Below are positions 5,013 through 21,600 of a stretch of 41,567 bases of DNA, in pieces. The notes beneath the pieces are model-generated. The model made no database searches. It was given only the letters and a program-made list of their open reading frames with translations, and was not told the origin of the DNA. Each line of letters begins with the position of its first letter. Within the stretch, counting starts at the first letter, position 1. The DNA comes from Caldifarciminota bacterium. GTDB taxonomy: Bacteria > Hydrothermota > UBA3072. Both the position numbers and the translations under genes were made by a program. The stretch spans positions 1 through 41,567 of the forward strand of contig JAGLZA010000087.1 of the NCBI GenBank assembly GCA_023131835.1. The letters are read 5' to 3'.

Positions 5013-5255
5013 TTCAACCCCCTTTTAGAGATTAAATTCCTTTCCTCAACATCTTTATCCTCTCCTGAGGGACTGAAGAGCACCTCTTTTTTTGAACTTT
5101 CGCTCCCAAGAGGCAAAGGAACATCTAATTTTATCCAGGCTTGATACACCTCCTTTCTTTGGATTAAACATACAATACGCCAGTATGGACTTTTTCATTG
5201 CTCTTTCTTTCTGTATGATGCCAATCATTCTTTTCCTATCCATTAATCCTCTACC
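5013..5255 (-). promoter_or_regulatory. conserved 5' leader, module A
   Basis: This is the 243-nt untranslated leader between the predicted transcription start (5255) and the ATG at 5012. It shares blocks with three other leaders in the window: AAGGAGGT preceded by TTTAAY (5148-5168), CCTCTTGGGAG (5103-5113), AAGAGGTGCTC (5078-5088) and AGGAGAGGATAAAG. The CCTCTT and AAGAGG arms (5108-5113 and 5083-5088) can pair. CCTCTTGGGAG is read in a different frame here than in modules B and C, which favours conservation as RNA over conservation as peptide. Confidence 0.65.
5055..5243 (-). CDS. possible leader peptide (uORF), module A
   Basis: A 62-codon ORF begins 12 nt after the predicted transcription start, behind an AGAGG ribosome site. 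Its first part contains CMFNPKKGG, matching FNLKEGG and FNLKQGG at the same position in the other three leaders. The rest covers the conserved hairpin and is out of frame relative to module B for about 20 codons, then returns to the same frame and the same TAA. Translation may be real only up to the GG motif. It could be an attenuation peptide or chance. Confidence 0.3.
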   Translation of the reverse strand: MDRKRMIGIIQKERAMKKSILAYCMFNPKKGGVSSLDKIRCSFASWERKFKKRGALQSLRRG

Positions 5256-5265
5256 CTATATTACA

Positions 5266-5282
5266 TACAAATTCCATTCCAA
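5266..5282 (-). promoter_or_regulatory. sigma-54-like -24/-12 promoter, module A
   Basis: The minus strand reads TTGGAATGGAATTTGTA. It matches the sigma-54 consensus TTGGCACG-N4-TTGCA with GG and G(T) ten bases apart; only the -12 C is T. The same 17-mer, with one or two changes, precedes the three other modules. It predicts a start near 5255. Confidence 0.72.
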
Positions 5283-5352
5283 AAAACTAAGATGCTAAGT
5301 GGTTCAAAATCAGGGTATTATAAGCCCAGATTTTTCAGGAGTTGGAAACTTA

Positions 5353-5468
5353 TTTGCCAGTGGTGGTAAATGATTTACCAGTGGTCGTGTAAGTTTTTGC
5401 AATTTAAGGAGATACGGAAAAGATAAAGTGGAAAGTCTTTTACCAGTAGGTGGGAAGTAATTTACCAG
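5353..5468. promoter_or_regulatory. enhancer-like palindromes, module A
   Basis: Two 15-bp inverted repeats lie here. GGTAAATGATTTACC (5365-5379) is perfect, and GGGAAGTAATTTACC (5452-5466) has one mismatch. They lie 110 and 197 bases upstream of the predicted start. Both are flanked by further TTTACCAG half-sites. Position and symmetry suit binding sites for the Fis-type domain of a sigma-54 activator. Confidence 0.68.
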
Positions 5469-5535
5469 TTATAGGTTGTCGAGGAATCTCAGTAATTCTG
5501 GGTGAGGGGATAAGATAACTAAACTCAATAGGATT

Positions 5536-5569
5536 AAAGGCACAGGTCCTTGGTAGAACCTGTGCCTTT
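5536..5569. terminator. 12-bp stem-loop after the metalloprotease gene
   Basis: AAAGGCACAGGT (5536-5547) pairs perfectly with ACCTGTGCCTTT (5558-5569) around a 10-base loop. It lies 20 bases past the stop at 5589. The U-run on the minus strand is weak (CCTTTAATCC), so termination may be partial. Confidence 0.6.
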
Positions 5570-5588
5570 CTTGATGAATAAATTCTTC

Positions 5589-7829
5589 CTATTTTATCAT
5601 CGTTATTTTAAGTGTCTTGGTGAAGGAATCTGCATTCATCCTAACGAAGTAAATTCCACCTGGCACTTTTGCGCCAGATATATCTGTGCCATTCCAGGAA
5701 ATTGTGTGGTATCCGGATTCTCTTTTTCCCTCCATAAGTACTTTTACCAATCGACCATTAGGATTGTATATCTTCAAACTCACATTCGATGATTTTGGAA
5801 GGGAATAAGCGAGATACACAGAGGATTCTACAGCAAATGAATTGCTTGAGGTCTCTAATGAATAGACTGTGGGTAGATCCTTACTATCTCTTGGAGGACC
5901 TTCCTCAGACACTAACTCTGGAGTTTCCACTGCTTCGCCTTTTGAACTACTTTTAACAACCACATCATCAATATACCAGCCTTCATAATTGTTATAAAGG
6001 CCGTCAATAGTATCAAAGTAGAACCTTATCTTTACATTTCCAGAATAGGCAGAGAGGCCAAGCGCCACTTTCGTCCATGAAGTAATATTGGCATCTCTCG
6101 CATCCCACTGTTTTAAAAGAGCCCAACTGGAGCCACCGTCTGTGGATATTTGGACACGACAGACATCATACGCACCGGCATAACTTTCTGTCCAATAACA
6201 ATGATAGAATTCCAATACTGGGTTTGATGGAAGAGTAACACTGAATTCTGCACCACCATAATTCCTTGAACCAGTATCATAATCATGGTCGCTTTCTTCA
6301 TTGTATGCCAATGAGTAAGAGGAACTGTGGTCCCTATATGAAGTAACATGCCAGAGACCGCTAAGCGCCATATCAGCACTTCCATCGTCAAAGTTTTCAG
6401 AATATCCGGTTCCTGCTGGGTCTTGCTGGATGGATAACTTATAACTACCGGAACCTGAATACCTGCGAACCAATATACCCACTCTCTTATTTGTGGGGGT
6501 AATTGTGCAAGTCTCGTCCGAATTCCCACCTCGATAACTTACATCTTCCCATTCACCTTCATAATAATGCTCATTATATATCTCTGGGACATAAAGCGAA
6601 CGGACATAGAGGTCAAAATCAGATCCAGAAGGAATATTGGTCATCTTTACCGTAAGCGGATTAACCGTATTCGCATCCACTACCACTGAGTACATCCTAT
6701 ACTTCTTTCCATCCGATGTTGTCCCCGGGCTCGGTATAGAAGAAGAATAAGTATCTCCAACTTTAAGAAACTGACTTGCATCCTCGAGTCTTGTATCACT
6801 TTCTGCCCATTCTATTGCATTCTCGTGGGAAGTATGGAAATTCGTTGCAAAGCCCGGGCAGCGCATAACAAGAGGATTGGTAGCGCACGAAATTATATCA
6901 TCTACCGTATCCCATATACCATCCGCCTCAGTATCATAAAGGTCCACGCAAGTTCGGTAGTGCCCCAGTTCATGCAAAAGTAGTTTCTTATCCTCGTTGG
7001 GGAAGCCATACACCTTAGTTAAAACAACAGTCCAATTCCACGGCTGATACCATCCCCTATGGTCAGCGCCAGGGTCATAATCAACGACTAAACGAACATC
7101 AAAATCAGGTTCGTCAGTAGGCCAATCATTATTGGGGAGCCACTCTATAGCGCCAGGGACAAAGACAGGTTTCAACCCATCATCATGAAATTTATTGCTG
7201 ATATACTGATAGGCTTCATAGCTTGGGTAAGAACAAACGTCTCCACCACAAGCATCCTGATGTCTATCTGTATACCATTCTTCGACCTCGAAACAAACAT
7301 CGTCATCATTTAGTTTCACCCATGCAAAGGAAAAATCTCCACTACCACTATATATAGTAACGCGAGCTTCCCACTCACCTGACATATCTGCTGTATAATG
7401 TATAACCTCTGTGTTGTCACCACCTTTTGTTGCCTTGGCTTTCTCAACGCCATTAGGGTTGTATAGATAGAGATCGAAATCGGATCCTTTAGGCGGTGTC
7501 ATGGTTAGAATCATCTCCTGCCCATTATCCATATTCCACTTGAACCAACGGTAATAACCAGGAGATAAATCATAATGTTCGATCCAGTAATAATAACCTC
7601 TTGTTCTTTGTATAAGTAGTCTTTCGCCTACATCTCGTAGCTCCTTAAAATCAATTGGTTTTTTCACTTCTGAAGACTTATCAACTGTCATCGAAGGATA
7701 CACCGCCCTATGCGTGGCGATTTTCTCATGGTTTTCAGTCTTACCCGGTATAGTTGGTCCCGCCTTAGCGTATGCACACAACATAACTAACATTATAGTT
7801 AGTGCCAAGAACCGTATTTTATCTAACAC
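5589..7829 (-). CDS. secreted HELGH metalloprotease with C-terminal sorting domain
   Basis: This 746-residue protein has a signal peptide (residues 1-23, ending AYAKA). A PPC-like beta domain spans about 75-172 (SDFDLYLYNPNG). The zinc-protease motif HELGH is at 286-290, followed by YRTCVDLYD, in a cysteine-containing domain of about 178-340. A second PPC-like stretch lies at about 345-445 (SDFDLYVRS). A MAM/immune-inhibitor-A-like jelly-roll covers about 450-615, ending EGWYIDDVVV. A FlgD-Ig/Por-type sorting tail occupies the last 80 residues. It is most likely an exported peptidase, active outside the cell. The start codon is GTG at 7829, five bases behind AGGAGG. It shares the tail style and the promoter module with the 3054-5012 gene. 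The peptidase family cannot be named with certainty from the motif alone. Confidence 0.82.
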   Translation of the reverse strand: MLDKIRFLALTIMLVMLCAYAKAGPTIPGKTENHEKIATHRAVYPSMTVDKSSEVKKPIDFKELRDVGERLLIQRTRGYYYWIEHYDLSPGYYRWFKWNMDNGQEMILTMTPPKGSDFDLYLYNPNGVEKAKATKGGDNTEVIHYTADMSGEWEARVTIYSGSGDFSFAWVKLNDDDVCFEVEEWYTDRHQDACGGDVCSYPSYEAYQYISNKFHDDGLKPVFVPGAIEWLPNNDWPTDEPDFDVRLVVDYDPGADHRGWYQPWNWTVVLTKVYGFPNEDKKLLLHELGHYRTCVDLYDTEADGIWDTVDDIISCATNPLVMRCPGFATNFHTSHENAIEWAESDTRLEDASQFLKVGDTYSSSIPSPGTTSDGKKYRMYSVVVDANTVNPLTVKMTNIPSGSDFDLYVRSLYVPEIYNEHYYEGEWEDVSYRGGNSDETCTITPTNKRVGILVRRYSGSGSYKLSIQQDPAGTGYSENFDDGSADMALSGLWHVTSYRDHSSSYSLAYNEESDHDYDTGSRNYGGAEFSVTLPSNPVLEFYHCYWTESYAGAYDVCRVQISTDGGSSWALLKQWDARDANITSWTKVALGLSAYSGNVKIRFYFDTIDGLYNNYEGWYIDDVVVKSSSKGEAVETPELVSEEGPPRDSKDLPTVYSLETSSNSFAVESSVYLAYSLPKSSNVSLKIYNPNGRLVKVLMEGKRESGYHTISWNGTDISGAKVPGGIYFVRMNADSFTKTLKITMIK

Positions 7830-8049
7830 TTAAACCTCCTCTTTTTATTGAATCCCTTCATCATCTTTATCCTCTCCTGAAGAGTTTGAGAGCACCTCTT
7901 ATTAACTTTACACTCCCAAGAGGCAAGAGAGCATATGTTTTATTTACCCTTGATACACCTCCTTCTTTTAGGTTAAACATATAATTTCCTAATTCTTCAT
8001 CTATCGTTCTACCTTTATTTGATTGACCACTCATTTTTTTCTCATTCAT
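7830..8049 (-). promoter_or_regulatory. conserved 5' leader, module B
   Basis: A 220-nt leader. It carries the same blocks as module A: TTTAACCTAAAAGAAGGAGGT, CCTCTTGGGAG (paired arms 7918-7923 and 7895-7900) and AGGAGAGGATAAAG. Its second hairpin uses CTCTC and GAGAG arms, where module A has CTCTT and GAGAG. An ORF (MNEKKMSG... to RRG, 7867-8049) covers it, but its ATG coincides with the predicted transcription start and has no ribosome site. Confidence 0.62.
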
Positions 8050-8059
8050 TATTACTATA

Positions 8060-8076
8060 TACAAATTTCATTCCAG
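8060..8076 (-). promoter_or_regulatory. sigma-54-like -24/-12 promoter, module B
   Basis: The minus strand reads CTGGAATGAAATTTGTA, with GG-N10-GT spacing identical to the other three modules. The predicted start is near 8049. Confidence 0.72.
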
Positions 8077-8158
8077 AGAATGAGAAATACAACTTGTTGA
8101 AATTCAAGCCCTTAGAAATTGGAGATTCCTGAAAGTGGTAACTTATTTATCAGTTATT

Positions 8159-8281
8159 GGTAAATGTGTTGCCAGTTGCAGTAAAAGTCTTGAGGTTCAG
8201 TGTGATAAGAGATAAGGGGAGGTGGTAAGTAATTTACCGGTGGTGGTAAGTAATTTACCAGGGGGTGGTAAGTGATTTACA
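8159..8281. promoter_or_regulatory. enhancer-like palindrome array, module B
   Basis: Four sites of the GGTAA-N5-TTACC class are present: a degenerate one at 8159-8173, perfect ones at 8224-8238 and 8245-8259, and a near-perfect one at 8267-8281. The last three are 21 and 22 bases apart, two helical turns, so they face the same side of the DNA. The site at 8159 lies 110 bases and the one at 8245 lies 196 bases above the predicted start, matching modules A and D. Confidence 0.7.
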
Positions 8282-8287
8282 AATCAA

Positions 8288-8401
8288 GAGTTCCTCAAGG
8301 AATTTCAGGAATTCTTTTCTCTCAGGGTAGGAATGGAAACATCTTTTTAATTCTTTATCATCGATGATGGATTCAAGTTCTTTGAGGATTTTTATTGCTT
8401 C
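8288..8401 (-). pseudogene. 3' remnant of a second PknK-like kinase gene
   Basis: The minus strand from 8401 encodes a 38-residue stretch beginning EAIKILKELES and containing PERKEFLKFLEEL. It aligns without gaps to the last 38 residues (1167-1204) of the kinase-TPR protein at 18605-22219, with about 28 of 38 identical. No start or upstream kinase sequence is attached: at its 5' side the homology passes directly into the last codons of the ABC ATPase gene, whose TAA lies inside the remnant in another frame. It is therefore the tail of a lost paralogue, not a gene. Confidence 0.75.
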
Positions 8402-9060
8402 TCAATCATTCCATCTTGAAGTGATATAACCCTTTTTGCCCTTTTGGCAATGCGAAGGTCATGAGATACGATAATAACAGTTCTCCCTTCTTCATTGAGA
8501 TAACCGAAAAGATTTAATATATTCAATCCTGTTTTTGTATCAAGGTTACCTGTTGGTTCATCTGCAAGTATGATATCCGGGTCATTAACTATTGCCCTTG
8601 CAATAGCAGCCCTTTGTTTCTCACCTCCTGAAAGTTCATTCGGTGAATGTAATGCCCTGTGTTCCATATCTACTTTCTTGAGTGCTTCATAAGCCCACTT
8701 TTCCCTCTTGTCTTTCTTTTCCCCCGCATAGAATAGAGGAACACCCACATTTTGTAGGATATTTATTCTTGGCAGGAGATTAAAGAACTGGAACACAAAT
8801 CCTATCCTTTTGTTCCTTATTCCTGCAATCTCCCTTTCACTAAGACCATCTACTCTTTTCTCATCAAACCTGTACTCTCCTTTTTTAGGTATATCAAGAC
8901 ATCCCAGGATATGGAGTAAAGTGGATTTACCCGAACCTGATGGACCTGTAATGGCTATATATTCACCCTTTTTGATTTTGAGATCTATTTCCCTCAAGGC
9001 TGTTACCTCTTGTGGCCCTTTGTTGTATATTTTCCACCCATTAGATATCGAAATAAGCAT
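8392..9060 (-). CDS. MacB/LolD-type ABC exporter ATPase
   Basis: This 222-residue ABC ATPase has Walker A GPSGSGKST at about 39-47, the signature LSGGEKQRAAIARAI at about 142-156 and Walker B IILADEPTGNLD at about 162-173. Length and sequence fit the LolD/MacB/FtsE group, which powers FtsX-type permeases that move substrates from the periplasm instead of across the inner membrane. It shares one base with the permease gene, and the operon continues upstream with an adaptor and a TolC-like protein. The last codons (EKQ and stop) coincide with the start of the kinase remnant, so its 3' end was probably redefined by a recombination event. Confidence 0.9.
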   Translation of the reverse strand: MLISISNGWKIYNKGPQEVTALREIDLKIKKGEYIAITGPSGSGKSTLLHILGCLDIPKKGEYRFDEKRVDGLSEREIAGIRNKRIGFVFQFFNLLPRINILQNVGVPLFYAGEKKDKREKWAYEALKKVDMEHRALHSPNELSGGEKQRAAIARAIVNDPDIILADEPTGNLDTKTGLNILNLFGYLNEEGRTVIIVSHDLRIAKRAKRVISLQDGMIEKQ

Positions 9061-10262
9061 TATTCGTACCTGAGCGCCTCTATCGGATCTAATTTACTTG
9101 CTTTGAAGGCAGGATAAAGCCCGGAGAGGATTCCCACAAAAACAGAGAATGTGACACCTATAAAGACCACTATCCAGGAAATTATAAAAGGAACCTGCAG
9201 GAGTGGTGCGGCTATCCAGGCAATGATTAACCCTACGATTATGCCTATAATACCTCCTGCAATGCATAGAATAATGGCTTCAATTAAAAATTGAAGAAGA
9301 ATATCGCTTCTCAATGCTCCCAATGCTATCCTTATTCCTATCTCTCTGGTTCTTTCTCCTACTGAAACAAGCATCACATTCATTATGCCTATACTACCCA
9401 CCAAAAGTGAAAGAAGGGCAACACCTCCTACGACAAGCGTAACAACCCTGATAATTTTGTTCTGCATTTTCAGATATTCCCCATAGGATTGTGCCTTGAA
9501 AATCTTCTTGCCCAATCTTCTGGATTGTAATATTGTTTCTATTTCGTAGGTTGCATTTGACAATCTATCTTCAGATACCGCTTTCGCATAATATCCTTTA
9601 TTCTCAGATCCTTCCTCCTCTAATACACTAATTGGCACATACACATCCATCATTTCAGTAAATCGTTGGATCCAAAATGCTTCTCTTTTTACCAGGCCGA
9701 CAATCCTGTAAGATCTGTTCCCAAAAGATACCAAATCGCCTATTTTGGGCGTTCCTTTAAGGGCTTTCTGTGCCACACGATTCATCTCTATTGCACAAAT
9801 ATTTCGCCTCATATCTATATCAATTCTGTTAATAAATCTACCCTGTAGTACGTTTACTATCGCGATATCCTGAAAGTCCACATCTATTCCCCATACAACC
9901 ACGCACTCTTTGCCCAACTCATGCCCTTTCTGTATCATCTCTGTAATGTTTCCTACTGAAGAAGCATTCTTCTTGATGGAAAGAAGATCATTCTTTGTTA
10001 AAGGAAATTGATCTGTAGTAACACTCACGCTATAATTTTCACTTTGTTCAAAATAGACCGGCTTTGGAAATATGCTTATGAGCTCTGTACCCATTTTTTT
10101 CAATTCCTTTCGTATCTTCGATTTGCTTCCTTCACCGATCGATGCAATTGTTACCACTGCAGTAATTCCTATTATGATTCCAATTAGAGACAGTGTGGAT
10201 CTCAATCGGTATACTCTCAGGTTATTAAAACCTATTGTTACAAATTCCCTAAAATCCCTCAT
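9060..10262 (-). CDS. MacB-type FtsX permease
   Basis: This 400-residue membrane subunit has the usual MacB order: a first transmembrane helix at about 20-42 (STLSLIGIIIGITAVVTIASIGEG), a periplasmic MacB-PCD domain of about 220 residues, then three helices in the last 130 residues with the conserved GERTREIGIRIALGALRSDIL loop. It ends in the typical GLYPAFKASKLDPIEALRYE. With the ATPase downstream and the adaptor upstream it should form a tripartite exporter. Substrates of this family include peptides, lipopeptides and macrolides. It overlaps the adaptor gene by 14 bases. Confidence 0.9.
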   Translation of the reverse strand: MRDFREFVTIGFNNLRVYRLRSTLSLIGIIIGITAVVTIASIGEGSKSKIRKELKKMGTELISIFPKPVYFEQSENYSVSVTTDQFPLTKNDLLSIKKNASSVGNITEMIQKGHELGKECVVVWGIDVDFQDIAIVNVLQGRFINRIDIDMRRNICAIEMNRVAQKALKGTPKIGDLVSFGNRSYRIVGLVKREAFWIQRFTEMMDVYVPISVLEEEGSENKGYYAKAVSEDRLSNATYEIETILQSRRLGKKIFKAQSYGEYLKMQNKIIRVVTLVVGGVALLSLLVGSIGIMNVMLVSVGERTREIGIRIALGALRSDILLQFLIEAIILCIAGGIIGIIVGLIIAWIAAPLLQVPFIISWIVVFIGVTFSVFVGILSGLYPAFKASKLDPIEALRYE

Positions 10263-11337
10263 AAAATGGTATACTCGGCTCTTTTAAAATGACACTTGTA
10301 TTGTTTTTGAGATATAAGTTATTTGAGATAATCACCTTCTCACCTGGTTTTAACCCATCAACAATTTCAACAAGTTCATTACTGCTAAGCCCGATCTTTA
10401 CTTCCCGCCTTTTTGCTTTGCCTGAATTATATACAAAGAGATAGGCATTGGATTCGCCATCGTAAAGCACTGCCTCTAATGGAACTCCTATGGCATTCTG
10501 CTTTCGTTGAGTAATTACCCTACCAAGAACATGACCTCCGATACGTAGAACAGTACTTGAGGGATTCTCAATGGAAACGGTTACTGAAAAGGCAGGCGCA
10601 CCAAAACCCATTGGTGTACCTGCTCCTTGCTTTGCTATCATACTTACCCTTTCCACTCTACCATTCAATTCTTCAGAGAACGCCTCACTCATTATCAGCA
10701 CTTCCTGCCCATTATGTATCCTTGCAACATCCTTTTCATTCGCATCCAATTCAGCAATCAAATGTTCCATATCACAAAAGGTAAAGAGTGGATCATCTCT
10801 CTTTACAATTTCTCCATTTTTTACTCTCATCTCTGAGATAACACTACTAAATGGTGCACTCAGCTTCTGGGGCATTAATTTTTCCTTTAACTCCTGAACG
10901 CTTATCTTCTGGCTCTCATAGTTCAACTTTTCCCGCATAAGTTCGTTTTCGGATATAGCCTTTAATTCAAAAAGCTGTTTGCTCAACGCAACTTTTCTTT
11001 TAGAGATTTCCAGTTCCGTTTCAGCCCTTTTGAGTTCATTCTGAATAGTCTGGGTCTCCTCTTCTGAAGTCTTTACCTCGCCTAAAAATTCTCCTTTAGA
11101 AACCTTTGCTCCAGCCTGTATAGGAGCAGGAACCTTTTGTATTATCCCATTAGATTTAGCATGCAATGTAATTATTTTTCGGGATGTTATTGCCCCCCAT
11201 GCATCAACCTGTGAGATAAATTCAGCAACTTCTACACCAAATACTTCTACTTCTACTGAAGCCCCTCTTGAGACCATCCATCTTGTTATTAGAAGAACAA
11301 TTATACAACCAAATATAAGAAAAAGCCATTTTTTCAT
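10249..11337 (-). CDS. periplasmic adaptor (MacA/HlyD-type membrane fusion protein)
   Basis: A 362-residue protein with an N-terminal membrane anchor (residues 4-22). It has a barrel-sandwich half near ITLHAKSNGIIQKVP, a coiled-coil hairpin of about 100-150 rich in Glu/Lys/Leu, the second lipoyl half (LSAPFSSVISEMRVKNGEIV) and beta-barrel and membrane-proximal parts ending with GLKPGEKVIIS. This is the RND/MacA adaptor layout, linking the FtsX permease to an outer-membrane channel. It overlaps its neighbours on both sides (4 and 14 bases), typical of a single transcript. Confidence 0.88.
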   Translation of the reverse strand: MKKWLFLIFGCIIVLLITRWMVSRGASVEVEVFGVEVAEFISQVDAWGAITSRKIITLHAKSNGIIQKVPAPIQAGAKVSKGEFLGEVKTSEEETQTIQNELKRAETELEISKRKVALSKQLFELKAISENELMREKLNYESQKISVQELKEKLMPQKLSAPFSSVISEMRVKNGEIVKRDDPLFTFCDMEHLIAELDANEKDVARIHNGQEVLIMSEAFSEELNGRVERVSMIAKQGAGTPMGFGAPAFSVTVSIENPSSTVLRIGGHVLGRVITQRKQNAIGVPLEAVLYDGESNAYLFVYNSGKAKRREVKIGLSSNELVEIVDGLKPGEKVIISNNLYLKNNTSVILKEPSIPFYEGF

Positions 11338-12755
11338 TTTGCCCTCCCCTCTATTATCTTTTCCCAGTCATACACATCTTCAAATTCACCCATCGATTTA
11401 AGAAGTCGTGCATTTAGCAGGACATGGTCGAATGTAGCATCATCTAAGGAACTCTGAGATAGTAGGAGTCTCTCCTCTGTTCTGTTAACATCATCCTGGG
11501 ATATGATGCCCAGTTTGAACTTTTCTTCTGCAATATAGAGTGCCTTTTTTGCAATCTTAACATTCCTCTTCAGTGATTCGAGTCTTTTCTTGTTCATCTG
11601 TAACTCATTATATATCTCCTCTACTTCCCTTTTTATATTATACTTCAATTCTTCATAGTCAATTTTTACAATGGTTAGATTACTTATTGCACTGAGAAAA
11701 CTTGCCTTATAGGTTCCGCCATCAATAATGGGAAATGAGAGTGATACATTGAAAGACCAATCTCTATTATTCTGAATATCTTCGAGATGAAACCAGGGAG
11801 ATGTTGACTCATCAGAGAATGAATGGGTGTAATTTAGATTAATGGATGGTTTATTCTTTGCTCCTGCCTCTTTATAGGAGAGTTCTGCAAAATGAACGGA
11901 TTCTAAAGAGAGTTTTATCTCTTTCCTTTTGTTTAATGCTATCTGAATGCAGTCTTTGAGTAAAAGAGAACATGGTTTAACCACGACATTTTCATCAAGG
12001 ATGAATTCTTCCATCTTTATCCCTAAGGTCCTGAGAAATCCTTCTTTCTGGTTTCTATATGAATTTTCCGTAACCATTATCTCATCCTCTTTGAGTGCAA
12101 CCTCTACCTCTAAATTCATTACCTCGTCTTCTGAAATCTCACCTCCTTTTGCCTTGAGCCTGGCTATATCTAACATCCTTTTACTTCGTGTAAGGCTGAT
12201 GCGGTTTCTATCCAATGACCTCTGTGATTTTATCAGGGTAATATATTTATACATCACAGTGATGACAAAGTCCTCAACAGAATTTTTAAAATTCACTTCA
12301 CCGTATTCTCTACTATGCTTTAACTGTTTGAAAATATTCCTATTATAGGCAATTTCAGCAAAGGATAGTGGTTGTGTGAGAGAAATAGAAACAGTAGGAG
12401 AATAAGTAACATCTGGATTACTAATACCAGTATTACTAATACCAGTATACCCGGATGATAATTGAATGTCACCCCCCAGTGGAGAAATGAAGGAATAGTC
12501 CAGGGTTACCCCTCCTTCGTGTGTCCTATTATCAGGAAATGAAGCATACTTTGAGTAATCATAATTGTAGGATAGGTCCAATTTAGGCATATAGCCTGCC
12601 CTTGCTTCCTTATAAAAAGCATTGGACTGGTTGTAGTATTCTATTGTCCTCAAGAGTTCTACCTTATTATTCAAGAGGGCAATCTCAATGGCTTGGTTGA
12701 GATTGAGAGTATCTGCATTTAAAGTAAATATAATAAAGAAGAAATTAATCCACAT
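11334..12755 (-). CDS. TolC-like outer membrane channel
   Basis: A 473-residue protein of the outer membrane efflux family. A short signal peptide (MWINFFFIIFTLNA) is followed by LNLNQAIEIALLNN, the standard opening of TolC repeats. Two OEP repeats follow, with long helices (SLDRNRISLTRSKRMLDIARLK; RREVEEIYNELQMNKKRLES) and strand segments of alternating Tyr/Ser residues. It should form the outer membrane exit duct for the adaptor and permease downstream. It is the first gene of the exporter operon and starts 98 bases after the small secreted protein gene at 12854-13246. No clear ribosome site precedes the ATG, so translation may be weak or coupled. Confidence 0.88.
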   Translation of the reverse strand: MWINFFFIIFTLNADTLNLNQAIEIALLNNKVELLRTIEYYNQSNAFYKEARAGYMPKLDLSYNYDYSKYASFPDNRTHEGGVTLDYSFISPLGGDIQLSSGYTGISNTGISNPDVTYSPTVSISLTQPLSFAEIAYNRNIFKQLKHSREYGEVNFKNSVEDFVITVMYKYITLIKSQRSLDRNRISLTRSKRMLDIARLKAKGGEISEDEVMNLEVEVALKEDEIMVTENSYRNQKEGFLRTLGIKMEEFILDENVVVKPCSLLLKDCIQIALNKRKEIKLSLESVHFAELSYKEAGAKNKPSINLNYTHSFSDESTSPWFHLEDIQNNRDWSFNVSLSFPIIDGGTYKASFLSAISNLTIVKIDYEELKYNIKREVEEIYNELQMNKKRLESLKRNVKIAKKALYIAEEKFKLGIISQDDVNRTEERLLLSQSSLDDATFDHVLLNARLLKSMGEFEDVYDWEKIIEGRAK

Positions 12756-12776
12756 ATTGCGTAGTTTAGGAAACTC

Positions 12777-12814
12777 TATCCCAATCCCTGCAAAACAGAG
12801 CTGGGATTGGGATA
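12777..12814. terminator. 12-bp stem-loop between small secreted protein and exporter operon
   Basis: TATCCCAATCCC (12777-12788) and GGGATTGGGATA (12803-12814) pair perfectly around a 14-base loop. On the minus strand there is no U-run after the stem, so it may attenuate or stabilise the upstream message more than stop it. If read through, the exporter would belong to module C. Confidence 0.5.
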
Positions 12815-12853
12815 TAGATTCATGATAGACAAATAGAAAAAGCCAAAAAACTA

Positions 12854-13246
12854 CTACAGATAGTATTTGGCTCTAAAGATCCAAGTGCCAGATCCCCTAA
12901 AAGGTATATTTATCCGCTGTATTATATTATTGTCGCGTTTGAAATCCACCGTATGTGAACCAGAGCTATTATACAGAACAACCCTGGTTTCCGTTTCTAT
13001 ATAACCCGTTGCACTTGTTACCTTTTCGGTCGTATTGGAGGTTGTTGAAACGTTTGTTTTACACTCAATCGCTTTGTTATTATTGCTAATAGTTTTACCC
13101 TTAACAAGATCCCACGATCTCTGGTAAAAGACACCTGTCCTTGATCCATATGGAGCCCTATAAACAGTATAGGTCGACGCATGTGCAGTGGAAACAAAAA
13201 CAAATAACATCATTACCACTACTATAACAGCTATTATCTTTTTCAT
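12854..13246 (-). CDS. small secreted protein of unknown function, module C
   Basis: I place the start at the ATG at 13246, giving 130 residues, because it has an AAAAGGAG ribosome site six bases upstream and opens a clear signal peptide (MKKIIAVIVVVMMLFVFVSTAHA, cut after residue 23). A longer ORF begins at 13459, but its first 71 codons cover the conserved leader. The mature part is about 107 residues, rich in Ser, Thr, Arg and Tyr, with a single Cys (IECKTN) and a beta-like pattern (RVVLYNSSGSHTVDFKRD). I do not recognise the family. It is the first gene after promoter C, and a MacAB-TolC-like operon follows it. Confidence 0.7.
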   Translation of the reverse strand: MKKIIAVIVVVMMLFVFVSTAHASTYTVYRAPYGSRTGVFYQRSWDLVKGKTISNNNKAIECKTNVSTTSNTTEKVTSATGYIETETRVVLYNSSGSHTVDFKRDNNIIQRINIPFRGSGTWIFRAKYYL

Positions 13247-13469
13247 AATTTTCTCCTTTTTATTTTCCTTCAACATCTTTACCCTCTCCTGGAGGATTGG
13301 AGAGCACCTCTTTTCTAATCTTACACTCCCAAGAGGCAAGAGAGTATCTAATTTTATCCAGGTTTCATAACCTCCTTGTTTCAGGTTAAAACTACAATTG
13401 GCGGGTATCGCTTTCCTCTTTTTACTTTCACTCATCATATTATCGCTTCCTTTATTCATCCGTCCTCCT
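13247..13469 (-). promoter_or_regulatory. conserved 5' leader, module C
   Basis: A 223-nt leader with the shared blocks: arms CCTCTT and AAGAGG (13331-13336 and 13307-13312) and a second perfect hairpin CTCTCC/GGAGAG (13284-13289 and 13299-13304). Its first 90 bases are nearly identical to module D. A leader ORF starts at 13459, ten bases from the predicted transcript start, behind AAGGAGG. It contains SFNLKQGG and stays open in frame into the secreted protein gene, unlike the other three leaders. Confidence 0.65.
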
Positions 13470-13479
13470 TCAACATATA

Positions 13480-13496
13480 TACAAATTTCATTCCAA
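13480..13496 (-). promoter_or_regulatory. sigma-54-like -24/-12 promoter, module C
   Basis: The minus strand reads TTGGAATGAAATTTGTA, with GG-N10-GT spacing as in the other modules. The predicted start is near 13469. Confidence 0.72.
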
Positions 13497-13547
13497 AGTA
13501 AATCTTATTGATATTCAATGAGTTATAAGAAATTCATTTATCAAAAG

Positions 13548-13638
13548 TGTTCCGATAGTGGAACATAGCTCGCAGATAAAGGAATAAATAGATTATGAAG
13601 TTCCATAAATGGAACACTTATTGATTTATCCGGATAAA
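13548..13638. promoter_or_regulatory. second class of enhancer-like palindromes, module C
   Basis: TGTTCC-GATAGT-GGAACA (13548-13565) is a perfect 6-N6-6 inverted repeat. AGTTCC-ATAAAT-GGAACA (13599-13616) is one base short of perfect. They are 51 bases apart and lie about 80 and 130 bases above the predicted start. A further perfect palindrome, TTTATCCGGATAAA, is at 13625-13638. None matches the GGTAA-N5-TTACC class of modules A, B and D, so a different activator is expected here. Confidence 0.68.
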
Positions 13639-13647
13639 GGAACTACC

Positions 13648-16600
13648 CTATTGAAATGGTATTAGAGGTTGCGTATTATCTTGATTTTTGAGTATTTGAA
13701 GTTCTTCTATTTTTCTGTATAATGTAGTTCTACCTATTTTTAATAATTTTGCCGCTTTTGACATATTATAATTGCATTGTTTTAAGACTAATGCGATATA
13801 TTCGCACTCCCTCTCTTTTATAAATTCATCCAACCTTACAATCTTATCAATTTCGATTGGTCTCGTTTCTCTTATTTCTTCCTTTAAATCATCAATTGTA
13901 ATAATCTCTTCCTCAGTTATTGCAACTAATCTTTCTATCTCGTGTTCAAGTTCACGCACATTCCCTTCCCAGGTGTAATTCGTCATTGTGTTCATTGCTT
14001 CCCCGGTAAATCCTTTTATATCCCTGCCAAATTTTTTGTTAAATATCTCCAGATAGTAATTTACCAGTAATGGTATATCCTCTTTTCGTTCCCTTAAAGA
14101 AGGTATTTTCATCCTTATAGTGGTGATCCTGTAGAATAAGTCTTTTCTGAACTCTCCTCTTGTGATTAATTCCTCAATATCCTGATTGATAGCTGAGATT
14201 ATGCGAACATCTACCTTCTTGTGTTTTGTTTCTCCCAATCTTCTGAAATTGCCCTCCTGTAATACACGCAGGAGTTTTGCCTGAATTGGAAGAGGAATTG
14301 AGGTTATTTCATCTAAAAAGATAGTGCCTCCATCAGCCTCTTCCAGTAATCCTGGTTTATCATGGATGGCACCGGTGAATGCACCCTTTTTATATCCAAA
14401 AAATTCTCCCTCAAATAAGGAGTATGGCATTCCACCACAATAGATAGGCACAAAATTCCCCTTCCTCTTACTATGAAAATGTATTGCCTTTGCCACTAAT
14501 TCCTTACCAACTCCGGTCTCACCCTCAAGTAATACCGCTATATCTGATCCGGCGCAGGATTTTATGAGATTATAAACCTTCTGCATAGCCTTGCTCTCAC
14601 CAATAATGTTGCCGAATTTAGTGGTTACCTTTTTTTTCTGCGAAAACTTTGTTGATGGCTCTCCGCGTAGTTTGAGATTTTCAATTCCTATTGAGAAGAT
14701 TGAACTCAGTAACTTTAAGAATTCTATTGTATCACGTTCAAATCTATTTTGATTTTCCCGATTATCCATATATAGAACACCCTTTATCGTTTCTTCAACC
14801 TTGATAGGAATACAGAGTATTAACCCTTTTTGGTTAAGTATTAATTTCTTTTTATTATAAATTAGTTTACAAAGATTGTTAATGTTTTCTCGTGTTTCTT
14901 TATCTATTTCTTCATTAGAATAAACCTTCTTTATATCCCCATCTTCAAAAACGATTACTGCGCTCATACCTATCTGCAGAGTGTTCTTCACGAGTATTAA
15001 TGCCTCCTCGATAAATCTATCCAAAGAGACCTTACTGCTAATAAGTTTTACTATTGGAGTTAATACATCAATCTCAAGCCCCATCCGCTTTGGCAGGACC
15101 TGGAGTAGTTTTTCAACATCTTCTATTGAATTTTCTACTTTTTTAAGCCAGTAAATCTCTCCTCTTTCTTGTAGAATCCCATTCGCCTGTAATAAAGTAT
15201 CAAGTGCATCCTGGTATTTATTCATTTCTATGTATAATCTACCCATTTCATAAAGGGTGTGTGCCTTTTCAGTTTTCAGGTAAGGTTTACTGAACGCTTT
15301 CAAACTATCTTTAAAATACCTTATGGCTTCCTCTGGTGAATCATTTTTTATAATTTTTGCCCTTACTCTATGACTTAAACCAAGTAACAAATTGTCTTTT
15401 TTATCCTTTATATACTCTTCTGCCTTAAGTAATAAGTTTTCAGCTTTTTCAAAATCGCCTTTATTGACATATATGTTTGATAGGAGAATGCGTGCCTCGT
15501 TTAATTCTGATAAATTATTTATTTTTTTTTCTAATTTCATCAATTTTTTACAATAGAAAATTGCACGATTATACACCCCACGGTAGAAATATACCACACT
15601 GACATTTATGTAGACAATCACTGTTAACCGTATATCCTCATATTCTTTATGCTTTATTAACTCCAGGGATTTATTACAATATTCTATTGCAAGGTCTAAT
15701 TCATTGATTTGAGCATACAGTCCCCCTATATTGGCATATATTAAAGATAAGCGTATTTTATCTTCCATTCTTTTTGTATACTCTAAAGCATACCTGAAAT
15801 ATTTAAGGGCATCATTTGACCTTCCTGTGCTTTGAAGAATCAATGCAAGATTATGGTATGCTATTGCTAAACCTTTTATATCTCCTGTTTCTCTGCTGAG
15901 TTCTATTGCTTTCTTAAAGTAAAATTCTTCTTCTCTGTGATTATGAATTCTTCCGTATGTAACTCCTAAGTTTAAATATAAAACCCCACGGGTTTTTTTA
16001 CTCTTCGTTAGTTCTAATGCTTCTTTCAAGTATTTTATTGCAATATTGCATCTGTCTCTATGAGTATAACTTAATCCCATTGCATTCTTCGTTTCTGCTT
16101 GAAGTTCTTTATCTCCTAATTTAACGCTTATCAATAGAGCTTCCTTGAGATAATTTATTCCTCTACGATGTTCACCTTTTGCGATTAGTATGCGTCCAAG
16201 GATTTTATAAACCTGCGCTTTTTGTATAGAAACGTCTTTACTTATTAACTTCAAAACACCTTCGCCAATTTTAAAGGCTTCCTTATTTTTACCTTGCAAT
16301 CTGTTAATCTTCATTAACTCTACCATTGCTTTTATCCTTAATTCATTTTGCTCTTCTTGTGAAATCACTTCTTTTAAATACTTTATGGATTTCTTAAAAT
16401 TACATACAATTCCACATACTTCCGCTAATTTAATCCTTATTTTCATCATTTTACTCTTATCTGTTGCAAATCTAAGTGCAGTTTCATAAAGTGGTATAGA
16501 TTCTAAATAGGCAAACTCCTTCTCTGCATTCTTTGCTGCCTTAAGAGAATATTTATAAGCCTTACCTCTGACCTCTGCCAGTGAAAAATGTTGAGCAAGA

Positions 16601-17850
16601 ATTGCATTTTCCAGAGGGAAATGTTTCTCTAACACAGGACCAACCTTCTTATGCAGTTTCTTTCTCTCATTCCCGGGTATTATTCGATATGCAACCTCTT
16701 TTATCATGGGATGAGCAAATTTGAATCTCTCTTTTCCTTCTATGGTTTCCTTTCGCAAGATCCATTGGTTATTCAATACTTTGAGTTCCCTGCGAATATC
16801 TTTATCCATAATCTCATTCAAGATTACACTATCTATATATTCACCACCCATAATAGATGCATATTGAATCACTCTCATTAACTTTTTATTGGGAACCCTC
16901 TCTAGTTTCTCCTGAATTATTTGTAGGATTGTCCCGGTTAACTCTATTCCGGATAATTTATCTTTGTCTATTATACAGGTATCTTCTTCTTTTGTTAAGG
17001 CTTTTCCCTCTATCAATAATCTTACGAAGTGTTCTATAAAGAGGGGAATACCTGCTGTCTTTTTGAAAGTTTTATCTAAAATAGATTCAATTGCATCTTC
17101 TTCTATTACATCTATCATAGAAGTTATAAACTCCCTTGTGGATTGAATACTTAATCTCTCAAGCAGAATCTTGATAAAATAGCCTTTTATTGCCTCTTCA
17201 AACTCAATAAGTTTATCAGTCTTTTCTTCCTCTCTGTAAGTAATAATGAAAATAATATTTGATGTGACTGGCATTCCGAGTGCCAGATATTTGAGAAACT
17301 CAATGGTCTCTTTTCCTGAATATTGGAAGTCTTCCAATGCTATTACAATATTCTTCTCTAATGGTAAATTTATGAGGAACTGCAAGAATCTCTCAAGGAT
17401 GTAGTGCTTCTCTATTTCTTTTAAGTGTTTAACCTTCCGTAGGTATTCTTTGTTCCTTAAATCTGGTGATAGGGTTATGAGCATATCTCCGTAAACCTTG
17501 ATGAATTCCTTATAATCTACTTCAAGTAGATTAATCAATGATTTGATAATCCTCCTGAAAGGTGCGTAAGACTCTTCTTCTTCTCTTTGGCATTCTACCT
17601 TTATAAAGATTGCGTTTTTTAGTCTACTATATTTATCAATCTCTTCTAATAACCGTGTCTTGCCAATACCTGCTTCCCCTGAAATAATAATGATTGGTTT
17701 ATGTGGGTTTTCACCTAATTTACTGAATTCTTCCTTTAAAAGGGTTAATTCTTCCTTTCTTCCCACAAGTGACTTTGGTCGGGTAAATGTAAGTTTACCA
17801 GGATGAGTTCTTAGTTTAGATTTATCTTGCTTCGCCAAAGTCACCTCCAC
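13648..17850 (-). CDS. ATPase-TPR-GAF sigma-54 activator (MalT-like sensor fused to AAA and Fis HTH)
   Basis: This 1400-residue regulator has an N-terminal AAA_16/STAND-type ATPase (VGRKEEL at 29-35, Walker A GEAGIGKT at 58-65) and a long TPR array from about 420 to 890. A GAF-like domain covers about 920-1065 and the sigma-54 interaction domain about 1078-1320, with Walker A GETGVGKE at 1110-1117, an intact GAFTGA loop at 1156-1161 and Walker B TIFLDE at 1176-1181. A Fis-type helix-turn-helix lies at about 1354-1383 (NMSKAAKLLKIGRTTLYRKI). It should remodel sigma-54 polymerase in response to a ligand or protein sensed by the TPR/GAF half. The start is GTG and overlaps the module D gene by 29 bases, so the two are co-transcribed. 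Enhancer-like palindromes and promoter C lie directly behind its stop. Confidence 0.9.
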   Translation of the reverse strand: MEVTLAKQDKSKLRTHPGKLTFTRPKSLVGRKEELTLLKEEFSKLGENPHKPIIIISGEAGIGKTRLLEEIDKYSRLKNAIFIKVECQREEEESYAPFRRIIKSLINLLEVDYKEFIKVYGDMLITLSPDLRNKEYLRKVKHLKEIEKHYILERFLQFLINLPLEKNIVIALEDFQYSGKETIEFLKYLALGMPVTSNIIFIITYREEEKTDKLIEFEEAIKGYFIKILLERLSIQSTREFITSMIDVIEEDAIESILDKTFKKTAGIPLFIEHFVRLLIEGKALTKEEDTCIIDKDKLSGIELTGTILQIIQEKLERVPNKKLMRVIQYASIMGGEYIDSVILNEIMDKDIRRELKVLNNQWILRKETIEGKERFKFAHPMIKEVAYRIIPGNERKKLHKKVGPVLEKHFPLENAILAQHFSLAEVRGKAYKYSLKAAKNAEKEFAYLESIPLYETALRFATDKSKMMKIRIKLAEVCGIVCNFKKSIKYLKEVISQEEQNELRIKAMVELMKINRLQGKNKEAFKIGEGVLKLISKDVSIQKAQVYKILGRILIAKGEHRRGINYLKEALLISVKLGDKELQAETKNAMGLSYTHRDRCNIAIKYLKEALELTKSKKTRGVLYLNLGVTYGRIHNHREEEFYFKKAIELSRETGDIKGLAIAYHNLALILQSTGRSNDALKYFRYALEYTKRMEDKIRLSLIYANIGGLYAQINELDLAIEYCNKSLELIKHKEYEDIRLTVIVYINVSVVYFYRGVYNRAIFYCKKLMKLEKKINNLSELNEARILLSNIYVNKGDFEKAENLLLKAEEYIKDKKDNLLLGLSHRVRAKIIKNDSPEEAIRYFKDSLKAFSKPYLKTEKAHTLYEMGRLYIEMNKYQDALDTLLQANGILQERGEIYWLKKVENSIEDVEKLLQVLPKRMGLEIDVLTPIVKLISSKVSLDRFIEEALILVKNTLQIGMSAVIVFEDGDIKKVYSNEEIDKETRENINNLCKLIYNKKKLILNQKGLILCIPIKVEETIKGVLYMDNRENQNRFERDTIEFLKLLSSIFSIGIENLKLRGEPSTKFSQKKKVTTKFGNIIGESKAMQKVYNLIKSCAGSDIAVLLEGETGVGKELVAKAIHFHSKRKGNFVPIYCGGMPYSLFEGEFFGYKKGAFTGAIHDKPGLLEEADGGTIFLDEITSIPLPIQAKLLRVLQEGNFRRLGETKHKKVDVRIISAINQDIEELITRGEFRKDLFYRITTIRMKIPSLRERKEDIPLLVNYYLEIFNKKFGRDIKGFTGEAMNTMTNYTWEGNVRELEHEIERLVAITEEEIITIDDLKEEIRETRPIEIDKIVRLDEFIKERECEYIALVLKQCNYNMSKAAKLLKIGRTTLYRKIEELQILKNQDNTQPLIPFQ

Positions 17851-18160
17851 CAGGCATTTGTAGTATTATGTATCTATTCACGATAATCTTCTCCTGTTTA
17901 CTAACTTTTCCTTTATTAGAATAATTATATGCAGTATTTTGTGAAGTCCAAAGCACATGGTTTATACTCTGGCGGAAAGGGTGTCTGGATTTGAAGTAGT
18001 AATCTACTTTATCCCCACTGTTTTGCACGACTACATATGCAGTTTCAGCTCCAGATACATCTCCTACAACATCTTTACTACCAGCACGCGAATTGAATGT
18101 ATTCTTGATATATATTCCCAAAAAGAGTAGAGGACATATTAACAATCTACCTTTAAGCAT
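17822..18160 (-). CDS. small membrane-anchored or exported protein, module D
   Basis: A 112-residue protein with a hydrophobic N-terminus (RLLICPLLFLGIYI, residues 5-18) that may be a signal anchor. The rest is polar and rich in Tyr, Asn and Ser, with no recognised domain. Although similar in size and style to the module C protein, I see no convincing alignment between them. An AAAAGGA ribosome site precedes the ATG. It is the first gene after promoter D and overlaps the activator gene, so it could tell that activator about the envelope state, but nothing in the sequence proves this. Confidence 0.6.
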   Translation of the reverse strand: MLKGRLLICPLLFLGIYIKNTFNSRAGSKDVVGDVSGAETAYVVVQNSGDKVDYYFKSRHPFRQSINHVLWTSQNTAYNYSNKGKVSKQEKIIVNRYIILQMPGGGDFGEAR

Positions 18161-18392
18161 CTTAATTTCCTTTTAAGGTTTTTCCCTTTCCCGACAACTT
18201 TATTCTCACCGTAAGGGTTTGAGGAACACCTCTTTAACACTCTTTCGTCCCCAAAAGGCAAGAGAACATCTAATTTTATCTATGGTTGATAACCTCCTTG
18301 TTTCAGGTTAAAACTACAATTGGCGGGTATCGCTTTCCTCTTTTTACTTTCAATTATCGTATTATCGCTTCCCTTACTCAAACGCCCTTCTT
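18161..18392 (-). promoter_or_regulatory. conserved 5' leader, module D
   Basis: A 232-nt leader with the shared blocks. Arms at 18253-18258 and 18229-18234 still pair, although CCTCTT has become CCTTTT: the change makes a G-U pair, which fits a folded RNA. The first 90 bases match module C almost exactly. Confidence 0.62.
18280..18381 (-). CDS. possible leader peptide (uORF), module D
   Basis: A 33-residue ORF starting with TTG, 11 bases after the predicted transcript start and behind AGAAGG. It ends just after NCSFNLKQGG, with TAG closing it before the conserved hairpin. In this copy translation would stop upstream of the hairpin, which suits an attenuation-type role. Confidence 0.3.
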   Translation of the reverse strand: MSKGSDNTIIESKKRKAIPANCSFNLKQGGYQP

Positions 18393-18402
18393 CTATTTTA
18401 TA

Positions 18403-18419
18403 TACAAATTCCATTCCAA
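18403..18419 (-). promoter_or_regulatory. sigma-54-like -24/-12 promoter, module D
   Basis: The minus strand reads TTGGAATGGAATTTGTA, identical to module A. The predicted start is near 18392. It would drive the small module D protein and the downstream 1400-residue activator. Confidence 0.72.
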
Positions 18420-18500
18420 AAAACCAGGATATTAAGTCCTTAAAAATCAGCAAGTTATAAATCCAGTTTTTTCAAAATTGGAAACTTAGTTACCAGTGGT

Positions 18501-18602
18501 GGTGAATGATTTACCAGTAACAGTTTATCTCTTTGGAATTCAAGGGGATAATAAAATATTGAAGTGGAAAGTCTTTTACCAGTAGGTGGTAAATGATTTA
18601 CC
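18501..18602. promoter_or_regulatory. enhancer-like palindromes, module D
   Basis: GGTGAATGATTTACC (18501-18515) has one mismatch; GGTAAATGATTTACC (18588-18602) is perfect. They sit 109 and 196 bases above the predicted start, as in module A. The distal one ends two bases before the kinase stop codon. The sequence between these sites and the promoter is strongly similar to module A, pointing to a fairly recent duplication. Confidence 0.7.
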
Positions 18603-18604
18603 AG

Positions 18605-21600
18605 CTATAGATTAGCGAGGAATTGGAGGAATTCCTTTCTTTCCGGGTGAGAACGGAAAGACCTTTTTAATTCCTCCTCTTCGATAAAAGATTCAAGTTC
18701 TTTGAGGATTTTTATTGCCTCTTCAAATAGGGAGAGTGCTTCGTTTTTCTTTCCTAAGAGGAGTTTGCATCTTCCGAGGTGATAGTCTGTTCTCCATCGG
18801 TATTCCCTTGTATTCATTTTATCAAAGTGTCTCTTTGCCTCTTCGAAATAATGGACAGAATGTTCAGGGCCTAAAAGACCCTTTGTTTCGTATTGAACTC
18901 TCCCCTGAAGATATAAAGAAATAGCGGATGGTAATCTCTGGCCTATCGAATCTGCAATTTGATTGCCCTGTATCCAGTATCTCTTCGCTTTCTCTTGCTC
19001 ACATAAGAAGAGATAATCGTTTGACATACAGAAATAAAATAGGGCCTTATCTCTTTTTTCCTCAACATCCTTTGCTTCTACTCTCTCCATCAGGGACAGA
19101 GCTCCTTCTTCGTCGCCTCTTATTTTCAATCCATAAGCTTTCAAAATGTCATTCTTTTCCTCTTTTGAAAGAGTCCCTGCTATTTTATTTGCCTTTTTTA
19201 ACGCTCCAATAGAACAATAGATATTCATTAAGACCGATAATAGTTCTATTTCTAACAATTTATTTTCCAAATCTCTTGTAATTTCGATTCCTTCATTTAC
19301 ACTCTCAATTGCCTTCTTATAGATCCCCTGGTCAAGATAAATTAAGGATAGATTTTTAAAGGTAAGTGGAAGGTTTAGTTTTTCCTCTGTTTTTTTTCGG
19401 ATTTTTAAAACTCTCAGGAGTTTTTTTTCTGTTTCGGAGTATGAACCCATAAGGTAGAAATGATAACTTATATTGGCAAGAAAAGCGGTTTTCAAGGAGA
19501 TATTTTTTTTGGAAAGGGATATTCCCTGCTTAAAAAGAAACAGCGCCCTGGAGTATTCACCTCTTTCTCCAAGTAGTGCACCCATATTTATCAAAAGTAT
19601 TGGAATATTCTTTATATCGCCTATCCTTTTCTTTATAAAAAGAGATTTATTATACCATTCCATTGCCAGGTTATATTCTCTATTTTGATAATAGAAATAA
19701 CCCAAATTTACATAAGCATTGGAAAGCATAAAGTTATCTTTTATTTCACTGTCCATTTCAATAACTTTTCTAAGCGCCTTAATGGCTTCTTTTAGGTTCC
19801 CTTGTGTATAATAGACGATACCAAGTTTTAAAAGTGTTAAAGCTTCTATTTTTATATCCTTTTTTAATTGAGAAATTTTCAATGCGTCCTGAAGATAAGA
19901 GAGTGCTTTTTTTGTCTTCCCCATTATACAATAAACCCTGCCAAGTTCTCCAATGATTTTAACATATAGTATATCTTTTTTATCACCGAGCAAATCAATG
20001 CCCTTTTCATAAAACATTAATGCTTTCATTCGTTGTCCCATAGTTTCAGAGAGTAAACCTAACTGGCAAGATATACTCGCCCTTTCCGGCCTGTTTTCTT
20101 CAAGTTCTAAAGTCTTTTCGTAGAATTTAAATGATTTAGAATATTGACCTAAAAGGAGATAAAGGTTTGCAATCTTTTCAAGGACATCTTTTTTAACATT
20201 TTTATCTTTTATGCAAGGTAAACTCCTTAGGAGTAATTTCAACATTCGTAAATTTTCAATTTTTAAAACCTCAGGGATGATCCTGCGTACACCTTCTCTA
20301 TTTCCTGCCTCAAGGTAATGATATAATATTTCTTCAAACCTTGATGGATAGGAATCTTCGAGAACCTTACCAATCTCTTTATGTAACTCTCTTTTTTTTG
20401 ACAGAGGTATAGATTGATAAAGAATATTCTGTAAGACAGGGTGGGTAAATCGAATTAAGCCCTTTTCTTCTGTGAGAATGCCATTTTCGATCGCCTTTTT
20501 GAGACCTTTATCATCCTTGGAGAATAATGAAATGAGCTTTCTGGGAAATTCTTCCCCAATTGCTGAAAAATACGATAAAAATTCATTGGTATCCTTATCA
20601 AGTTCTTCCAGCTTATGCTTGAAAAAAGTATCTATATCTTTCGAAAAGGAAATCTTATCACTTTCGAGATTTTCAATATTTGCATGATATACTCCTTCCC
20701 TTTCTTTAATTACACCTTCCCTTAGATAGAGATTGAGGGATTTCCTTATCAATAGAGGATTTCCAGAGGTCCATCTATATGTCCTTTCCGTAAGCTCATC
20801 AACCAGGGACATTTCACCAAAGTTTATAAAAAGTAATTCTTTGATATCTTCTGGTAGTAATCCAGGGAGTTTTATCTTTTTTCCTTTTATTTCTATTGAT
20901 TTCTTCAATAGATCAGGGTTTCCTGTGGCAATGATAATTGCTTTTTCGCATAAATTCTCTGAAAGAAAATTGAAAAGATTTATTCCATCCGGAAGTGAAC
21001 TATGCAGGTCGTCTATGAGTATTACATGGAAGTCTTTTATTTCTGATATCGCTTCATTTATGAAATAGATGATTTTCTTGAAATCAGTGGGTTCTCCTTT
21101 GTGGGGACCTCTGCCCTCAAATATATTGGATAATTCTGGATAGAATGTAATTAATTCATCTCTGTATCTATTTACTAAATTCAAAGATGCCCTCATACTC
21201 AGTTCTTTGATAAGGGTAAAAAGAGGAGGGTGAGTAGCACTCTCTCTTTCTCTTAAAACCTTTATCCCTTCTAACGAAAGGTTCTTTGCAAATTCTTTAA
21301 GTAATGCCGTTTTACCCATTCCTGTTCCCCCATAGATTAAAACCGTTGATGGTGCATTAAACCCTTTTTTTATCCTCTTTTCAATAGAATCCTTCATTTT
21401 TTTTAATATTTCTTCTCTGCCTACAAATGGAAGGGAGATTTTTTTTTCTATCTTCACTCCTGGAAAGAGTGCATTAATGACCTCTTTTGCATCAGTGAAG
21501 CGGTCTTGAGGAAAAGGTTCAAGTAGTTTCAAAATTACGTTCTGTGTCCTTTTGGGAACCTTGGGATTTATCTTCTCAATGGGGATATAGTTTTTTTCTA

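Follow-up and report, generated by a model that had tools for sequence, protein, structure and literature searches.

Sigma-54 activators acting in series are known from the Vibrio flagellar cascade, which leads from FlrA through FlrBC to class III (PMC6504787). The enhancer-binding proteins (EBPs) of Myxococcus form a cascade around Nla28 in which EBPs activate EBP genes (PMC9765219, citing Giglio et al. 2011). The EBP motifs reconstructed for Desulfovibrio vulgaris are inverted repeats whose TGT...ACA half-sites are spaced by 9, 11 or 12 bp. Many of the activator genes there adjoin their sigma-54 target; in one case of ten, the target promoter comes after the activator gene, and similar HTHs do not always go with similar motifs (PMC4641369).

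The locus compared here with these systems lies in a window of 41,567 nucleotides, the whole stretch of DNA that was analysed. Along the minus strand, the order is a 669-aa activator, a 1204-aa kinase protein, four GGTAA sites, promoter D, a 112-aa ORF, a 1400-aa activator, two TGTTCC sites, promoter C, a small secreted protein, a TolC/HlyD/MacB/ABC exporter, five GGTAA sites, promoter B, a secreted protein with a HELGH motif, four GGTAA sites, promoter A and a last secreted protein. The features, in order of coordinate, are as follows.

3054–5012, minus strand: module A product, secreted, with a FlgD/Por-type tail
5264–5282, minus strand: module A sigma-54-type promoter
5343–5467: module A operators, four of the GGTAA class
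5589–7829, minus strand: module B product, secreted, with PPC and FlgD/Por-type C-terminal domains and a HELGH motif
8058–8076, minus strand: module B sigma-54-type promoter
8136–8282: module B operators, five of the GGTAA class
8392–12755, minus strand: module C genes 2–5, for a TolC-type outer-membrane protein, HlyD adaptor, MacB/FtsX permease and ABC ATPase
12854–13459, minus strand: module C gene 1, a small secreted protein whose signal peptide starts MKKIIAVIVVVMML, with the shared leader upstream in frame
13478–13496, minus strand: module C sigma-54-type promoter, TTGGAATGAAATTTGTATA
13548–13565: operator C1, TGTTCCGATAGTGGAACA, promoter-proximal, TGTTCC-N6-GGAACA with no mismatch
13599–13616: operator C2, AGTTCCATAAATGGAACA, 51 bp upstream of C1, one mismatch to TGTTCC-N6-GGAACA
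13648–17850, minus strand: putative second-tier activator, 1400 aa, with AAA_16/STAND, TPR, sigma-54 AAA+ (GAFTGA) and Fis HTH (GRTTLYRKI)
17822–18160, minus strand: module D gene 1, a 112-aa ORF overlapping the start of the 1400-aa activator gene
18401–18419, minus strand: module D sigma-54-type promoter
18479–18603: module D operators, four GGTAA-N5-TTACC with centre spacings of 22, 65 and 21 bp, then 70 bp to the GG
18605–22219, minus strand: Ser/Thr kinase, STAND ATPase and TPR protein, 1204 aa
22197–24206, minus strand: putative first-tier activator, 669 aa, with GAF, GGDEF (with RxxD), sigma-54 AAA+ (GSFTGA) and Fis HTH (SRQTLRKKL)
24357–24384, minus strand: candidate sigma-70-type promoter of the first-tier operon, TTGACA-N16-TATTTT

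We consider it likely that C1 and C2 are the UAS of the 1400-aa activator, with the first tier acting on A, B and D and the activator encoded in D acting on C. The cascade logic itself is that of FlrA and FlrC: one sigma-54 activator leads to the gene of a second, and this to a later set of operons, here as a prediction. The sensors and targets, however, are of new kinds. FlrC is a two-component response regulator, whereas tier two here would be a STAND-TPR protein of 1400 aa and tier one a GGDEF protein; secreted proteins and an exporter take the place of the class III flagellar set of Vibrio as targets. In the Myxococcus cascade, targets are dispersed over the genome and linked to development, whereas here both tiers and every target found lie mostly within 20 kb, and each tier has a distinct operator. 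Compared with D. vulgaris, the downstream position of the target recurs, and half-site and helix co-vary. What is new is a recurring activator-operator-promoter cassette of giant STAND-TPR activators, its covariation, and the building of a cascade by placing one such cassette inside another. A literature search under 'WOR-3', a guessed name for the phylum, returned no paper combining WOR-3 with sigma-54.

STAND activators of the MalT/LAL type have a LuxR-type HTH as output. The 1400-aa protein resembles them in its N-terminal AAA_16/STAND part and MalT-like TPRs (matches to AAA_16 and TPR_MalT), but its output is a sigma-54 AAA+ domain with a C-terminal HTH_8 (Fis-type) instead of the LuxR-type domain. 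Both activators have the sigma-54 interaction AAA+ domain (PF00158; E=1.5e-68 for the 1400-aa and 3.4e-67 for the 669-aa protein), a GAFTGA-type loop in their translations (GAFTGA and GSFTGA, respectively) and a Fis-type HTH (PF02954) at the C-terminus. Their recognition helices differ, as the initial annotation had quoted: ...KIGRTTLYRKI... in the 1400-aa protein against ...GISRQTLRKKL... in the GGDEF protein. A TTG just past the listed GTG may be the true start of the 1400-aa protein. In the 669-aa protein, GGDEF is kept, RxxD lies five residues upstream, and the fusion to a sigma-54 AAA+ domain and Fis HTH is unusual; judging from these residues, the domain may make or bind c-di-GMP. One relative of this activator (54% identical; L280:3333-5216) stops before the Fis HTH and keeps the gene of the kinase-STAND-TPR partner. 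A gene for a small ArsR-like HTH regulator lies on the opposite strand at 24931–25195, upstream of the first-tier operon.

A sigma-54-like promoter, TTGGAATGRAATTTGTATA, is common to modules A–D in near-identical form (minus strand, at 5282, 8076, 13496 and 18419), and the genome encodes rpoN (PF04552 at C147, E=3.5e-44). These promoters read TGGAATG-N4-TTTGTA and deviate from TGGCAC/TTGC, with GG kept and GC replaced by GT; other cassettes in the genome have TGGCAC...TTTGTA or TTTGCT. All four modules have a 5' leader of ~200–250 nt between promoter and first gene (5021–5262, 7830–8056, 13262–13475 and 18161–18399), 83% identical between C and D. Part of it also follows the sigma-54-like promoter of the target of another long activator (L034) and recurs at C37:5403-5539. 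An Rfam search of 4900–18700, A–D leaders included, gave no match. The leader could be an RNA element; a short leader ORF is another possibility.

The 1400-aa activator is indeed encoded in module D, behind D's sigma-54 promoter (18419–18401) and the operators at 18479–18603. It is the one activator gene of 25 examined with a sigma-54 promoter upstream, and this promoter is of the GGTAA class. No recognised sigma-54 promoter was found within 700 bp upstream of the activator genes of 18 relatives, or of the five other long activators and the GGDEF activator of this genome. Most other activator genes examined have TTGAC-type promoters, and no TTGACA box comparable to those of its relatives precedes the 1400-aa gene. 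A GGTAA/sigma-54 promoter without a TTGACA box, together with the TTGACA-N16-TATTTT match of the first-tier operon, is what one would predict were the second activator produced only once the first had acted. The two-step cascade proposed by the initial annotation thus draws support from the 1400-aa gene being alone behind such a promoter, but its first step is assigned by position and the strictness that it implied is weaker.

Basal 1400-aa protein, made from a weak promoter or by read-through, might instead suffice, so that module C would answer a signal of its own independently of the first tier. The protein does have a STAND/TPR sensor part of its own, and a sigma-70-like match (9 of 12 positions) lies within the 112-aa ORF, at chance level. 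However, the gene lacks the TTGACA-type promoter seen before its paralogues, and D's sigma-54 promoter is near-identical to those of A–C. We therefore regard such parallel inputs as unlikely.

The TGTTCC-N6-GGAACA sites reported between 13548 and 13616 are both present, the proximal one perfect and the distal one with one mismatch, and their restriction to module C holds: a scan of the window at up to two mismatches found no copies beyond C1 and C2. A lone degenerate copy is unsurprising, with 1.6 expected per window at two mismatches. C1, however, has no perfect counterpart elsewhere in the 3.9-Mb genome. Taken together, C1 and C2 outscore 99% of shuffled flanks, and across 147 genomes from the phylum their exact tandem arrangement turned up at this locus alone. 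A wider scan of a genome collection for tandem TGTTCC sites gave chance or repeat matches in unrelated taxa and was uninformative. Among the 147 genomes, we found no relative that has TGTTCC sites yet lacks the second activator, but only because these sites are private to this genome.

C2 and C1 lie 51 bp apart, and the centre of C1 is 62 bp upstream of the -24 GG. Alternatively, the two palindromes could be hairpins at the 3' end of the 1400-aa mRNA, or weak terminators for it, module C being expressed by read-through or from a promoter that does not depend on them. A loose scan does flag the stems as terminator-like, and the stretch separating module C from the 1400-aa gene showed no strong terminator, so read-through from D to C is possible. 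Against this, the stem is of 6 bp with three G-C pairs, and its tail, CTTTTGATAA, has no T run. The tandem same-class arrangement, the fixed 17/18-bp frame and the covariation with the helix recur in other genomes, at similar distances to the -24 element. We think it very unlikely that the palindromes serve merely as hairpins.

The assignment of C1 and C2 to the 1400-aa activator gains from its relatives. Including the 1400-aa protein, six long sigma-54 activators (1380–1620 aa) are encoded in this genome, each directly followed by a sigma-54-like promoter. Four of the six have two or three tandem palindromes of a private class between gene and promoter; L034 and L038 have one, or two weaker ones. 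The classes are as follows.

Window activator (1400 aa): TGTTCC-N6-GGAACA
L035: AGTCTC-N6-GAGACT
L039: TGTGAC-N6-GTCACA
L040: TGTTTC-N5-GAAACA
L034: TGTTCA-N5-TGAACA, single and clear
L038: TGTCC-N7-GGACA, weaker

Half-sites related to TGTTCC are found with three paralogues of the 1400-aa protein (62–67% identical): TGTTCA, AGTCTC and TGTCC. The helix GRTTLYRKI and the paralogues' GRATLYRKL, SRTTVYRKI and SRDTLYRKI pair with TGTTCC, AGTCTC, TGTTCA and TGTCC. Since related helices go with related half-sites among these proteins, TGTTCC is unlikely to belong to the GGDEF activator. The target of the C70 activator (L040:10537-15725) comprises a radical SAM protein and then a CAAX-protease membrane protein, and is possibly a peptide-modification operon.

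Across the phylum, long sigma-54 activators of the STAND-TPR type, many of them fused to a kinase, often have two or three tandem palindromes of a private class downstream. In the remaining genomes of the phylum, blind scoring of tandem same-class palindromes in 79 3' flanks of long activators gave at least 6.5 in 37%. No control stretch reached this score, either among 68 lying a further 700–1000 bp away or among 79 taken from coding sequence, whereas 0.9% of 1580 shuffles did. Related genomes push the flank counts up; the fair measure is the non-redundant test. In over half of the 79 flanks, a tandem palindrome is not detectable. A frequent geometry is a palindrome every 70–72 bp, the last ~73 bp before the -24 element.

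Placed in a single 17/18-bp frame, nearly all operators read TGTnnnA...TnnnACA; C1 becomes TGTTCCA-N4-TGGAACA. Variation in the half-sites correlates with variation in the Fis recognition helix (Mantel r=0.41, P=0.0001), also in a partial test on AAA-domain identity (r=0.38, P=0.0001) and among 13 non-redundant proteins (r=0.36, P=0.006). The Mantel test leaves aside L102, an AT-rich entry, and L101 and L258 are imperfectly framed by the 17/18-bp rule. Like helices have like half-sites even across families: SRRTIER, NRKTIQR and DRKTIQR go with TGCGACA, SRRHLYRLL with TGTGACA, SRQHLSRLL with TGTCACA, PRRTLY with TGTGCA, SRPTL with TGTAAA or TGTAAC, and SRFGLQKK with TGTCAAC. Among flanks that score below the threshold, eight have the half-site that their helix predicts (L252, L072, L241, L232, L098, L243, L251 and L260); in four others (L081, L087, L093 and L096) the expected site is absent despite a familiar helix. 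The positional rule, this covariation and the paralogues' related half-sites all point to the 1400-aa activator, and C1 and C2 are very probably private docking sites of this protein, encoded just upstream.

GGTAA-N5-TTACC, at up to two mismatches, is found 38 times in the window against 19 expected, a count that none of 100 shuffles reaches. Its clusters at 5343–5467, 8136–8282 and 18479–18603 precede A, B and D, one each as the initial annotation had it, and none precedes C. The three share their geometry (centre spacings of 21–22 and 65 bp, 70–71 bp to the -24 GG), unlike that of C (51 and 62 bp). The two palindrome classes of the initial annotation nevertheless share a single operator frame, TGNnnnA, of 17/18 bp, of which each is a variant. 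Tandem GGTAA operators at up to two mismatches occur in this genome only, apart from a probable chance match in G078.

That the GGDEF activator binds GGTAA was a further part of the proposal. The sites follow the GGDEF/kinase operon with shared geometry, but the link is mainly positional and no relative carries both. Relatives of this activator are rare (matches in 6 of 147 genomes at the cut-off), no GGTAA operators were found at those of their loci that were examined, and neither the TGTTCC nor the GGTAA class is present in relatives. From position and geometry, we infer that the GGDEF activator acts on GGTAA sites.

Outside the window, at ~5400–5700 of C37 (L347), a protein like the module A product lies behind TGGTATGGAATTTGCA, with two degenerate GGTAA-class sites ~21 bp apart and ~70 bp from the -24 GG by hand count; this module may also belong to the first-tier regulon. 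Also on C37, CGGGTAAATTTTACCCG lies ~25 bp past a response-regulator sigma-54 activator with helix SRKTLRNKL; it is found in three genomes (L316, L317 and L318) and is missing where the helix is DRKTLREKL. We set it aside as support for pairing the GGDEF activator with GGTAA, its spacing being N3 against N5, and treat it as a hint only.

Both proteins have a Fis HTH, and auto-regulation is common among activator genes. The assignment could then be swapped, with the GGDEF activator on TGTTCC before C and the 1400-aa protein on GGTAA, where it would activate its own module D as well as A and B; yet the positional rule and the paralogues' half-sites tie TGTTCC to the 1400-aa protein, the GGTAA sites likewise follow the GGDEF/kinase operon, and we give the exchange very little credence. 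It is just as improbable that another regulator acts in trans on TGTTCC, be it a repressor or one of four further Fis-HTH sigma-54 activators of ~450 aa in the genome, since their helices differ and the TGTTCC pair is unique in the genome and adjoins the 1400-aa gene.

Returning to the two-tier reading, we infer binding, activation, time order and signals from the sites, promoters, gene order, domains, positional rule and covariation read in the sequence. The co-encoded kinase-STAND-TPR partner would most likely control the GAF-GGDEF activator, which would act at the GGTAA operators and turn on A, B and D. Module D, with the 1400-aa gene as its second gene, would supply the second activator. 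Dimers of this protein would bind C1 and C2 as an enhancer (UAS) through the Fis HTH, and its AAA+ domain would open the -24/-12 promoter at 13496–13478. Module C, the small secreted protein and the TolC/HlyD/MacB/ABC exporter, would thus be switched on by the second tier. The STAND/TPR half of the second activator suggests that it additionally requires a signal of its own, module C coming on only once this sensor part is satisfied.

More generally, and with moderate confidence, we propose that the giant sigma-54 activators of the kinase-STAND-TPR type in this candidate phylum belong to self-contained cassettes, each made up of an activator gene, a private tandem operator, a sigma-54 promoter and a target, with co-evolving operator and helix and an orthogonal address for each new copy. 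Two such cassettes would here be linked serially by placing one activator gene under the operator of another. A guess about a single locus thereby becomes a testable rule, that the palindromes downstream of a giant sigma-54 activator gene form that activator's own address, and this address is partly predictable from nine residues of the recognition helix. If the cassette reading is true, the set is a natural recognition-code table for Fis-type HTHs. It offers a large natural data set on orthogonal specificity of enhancer-binding proteins after duplication, in uncultured bacteria with little known regulation, and many insulated activator/operator pairs that could potentially be moved into laboratory hosts.
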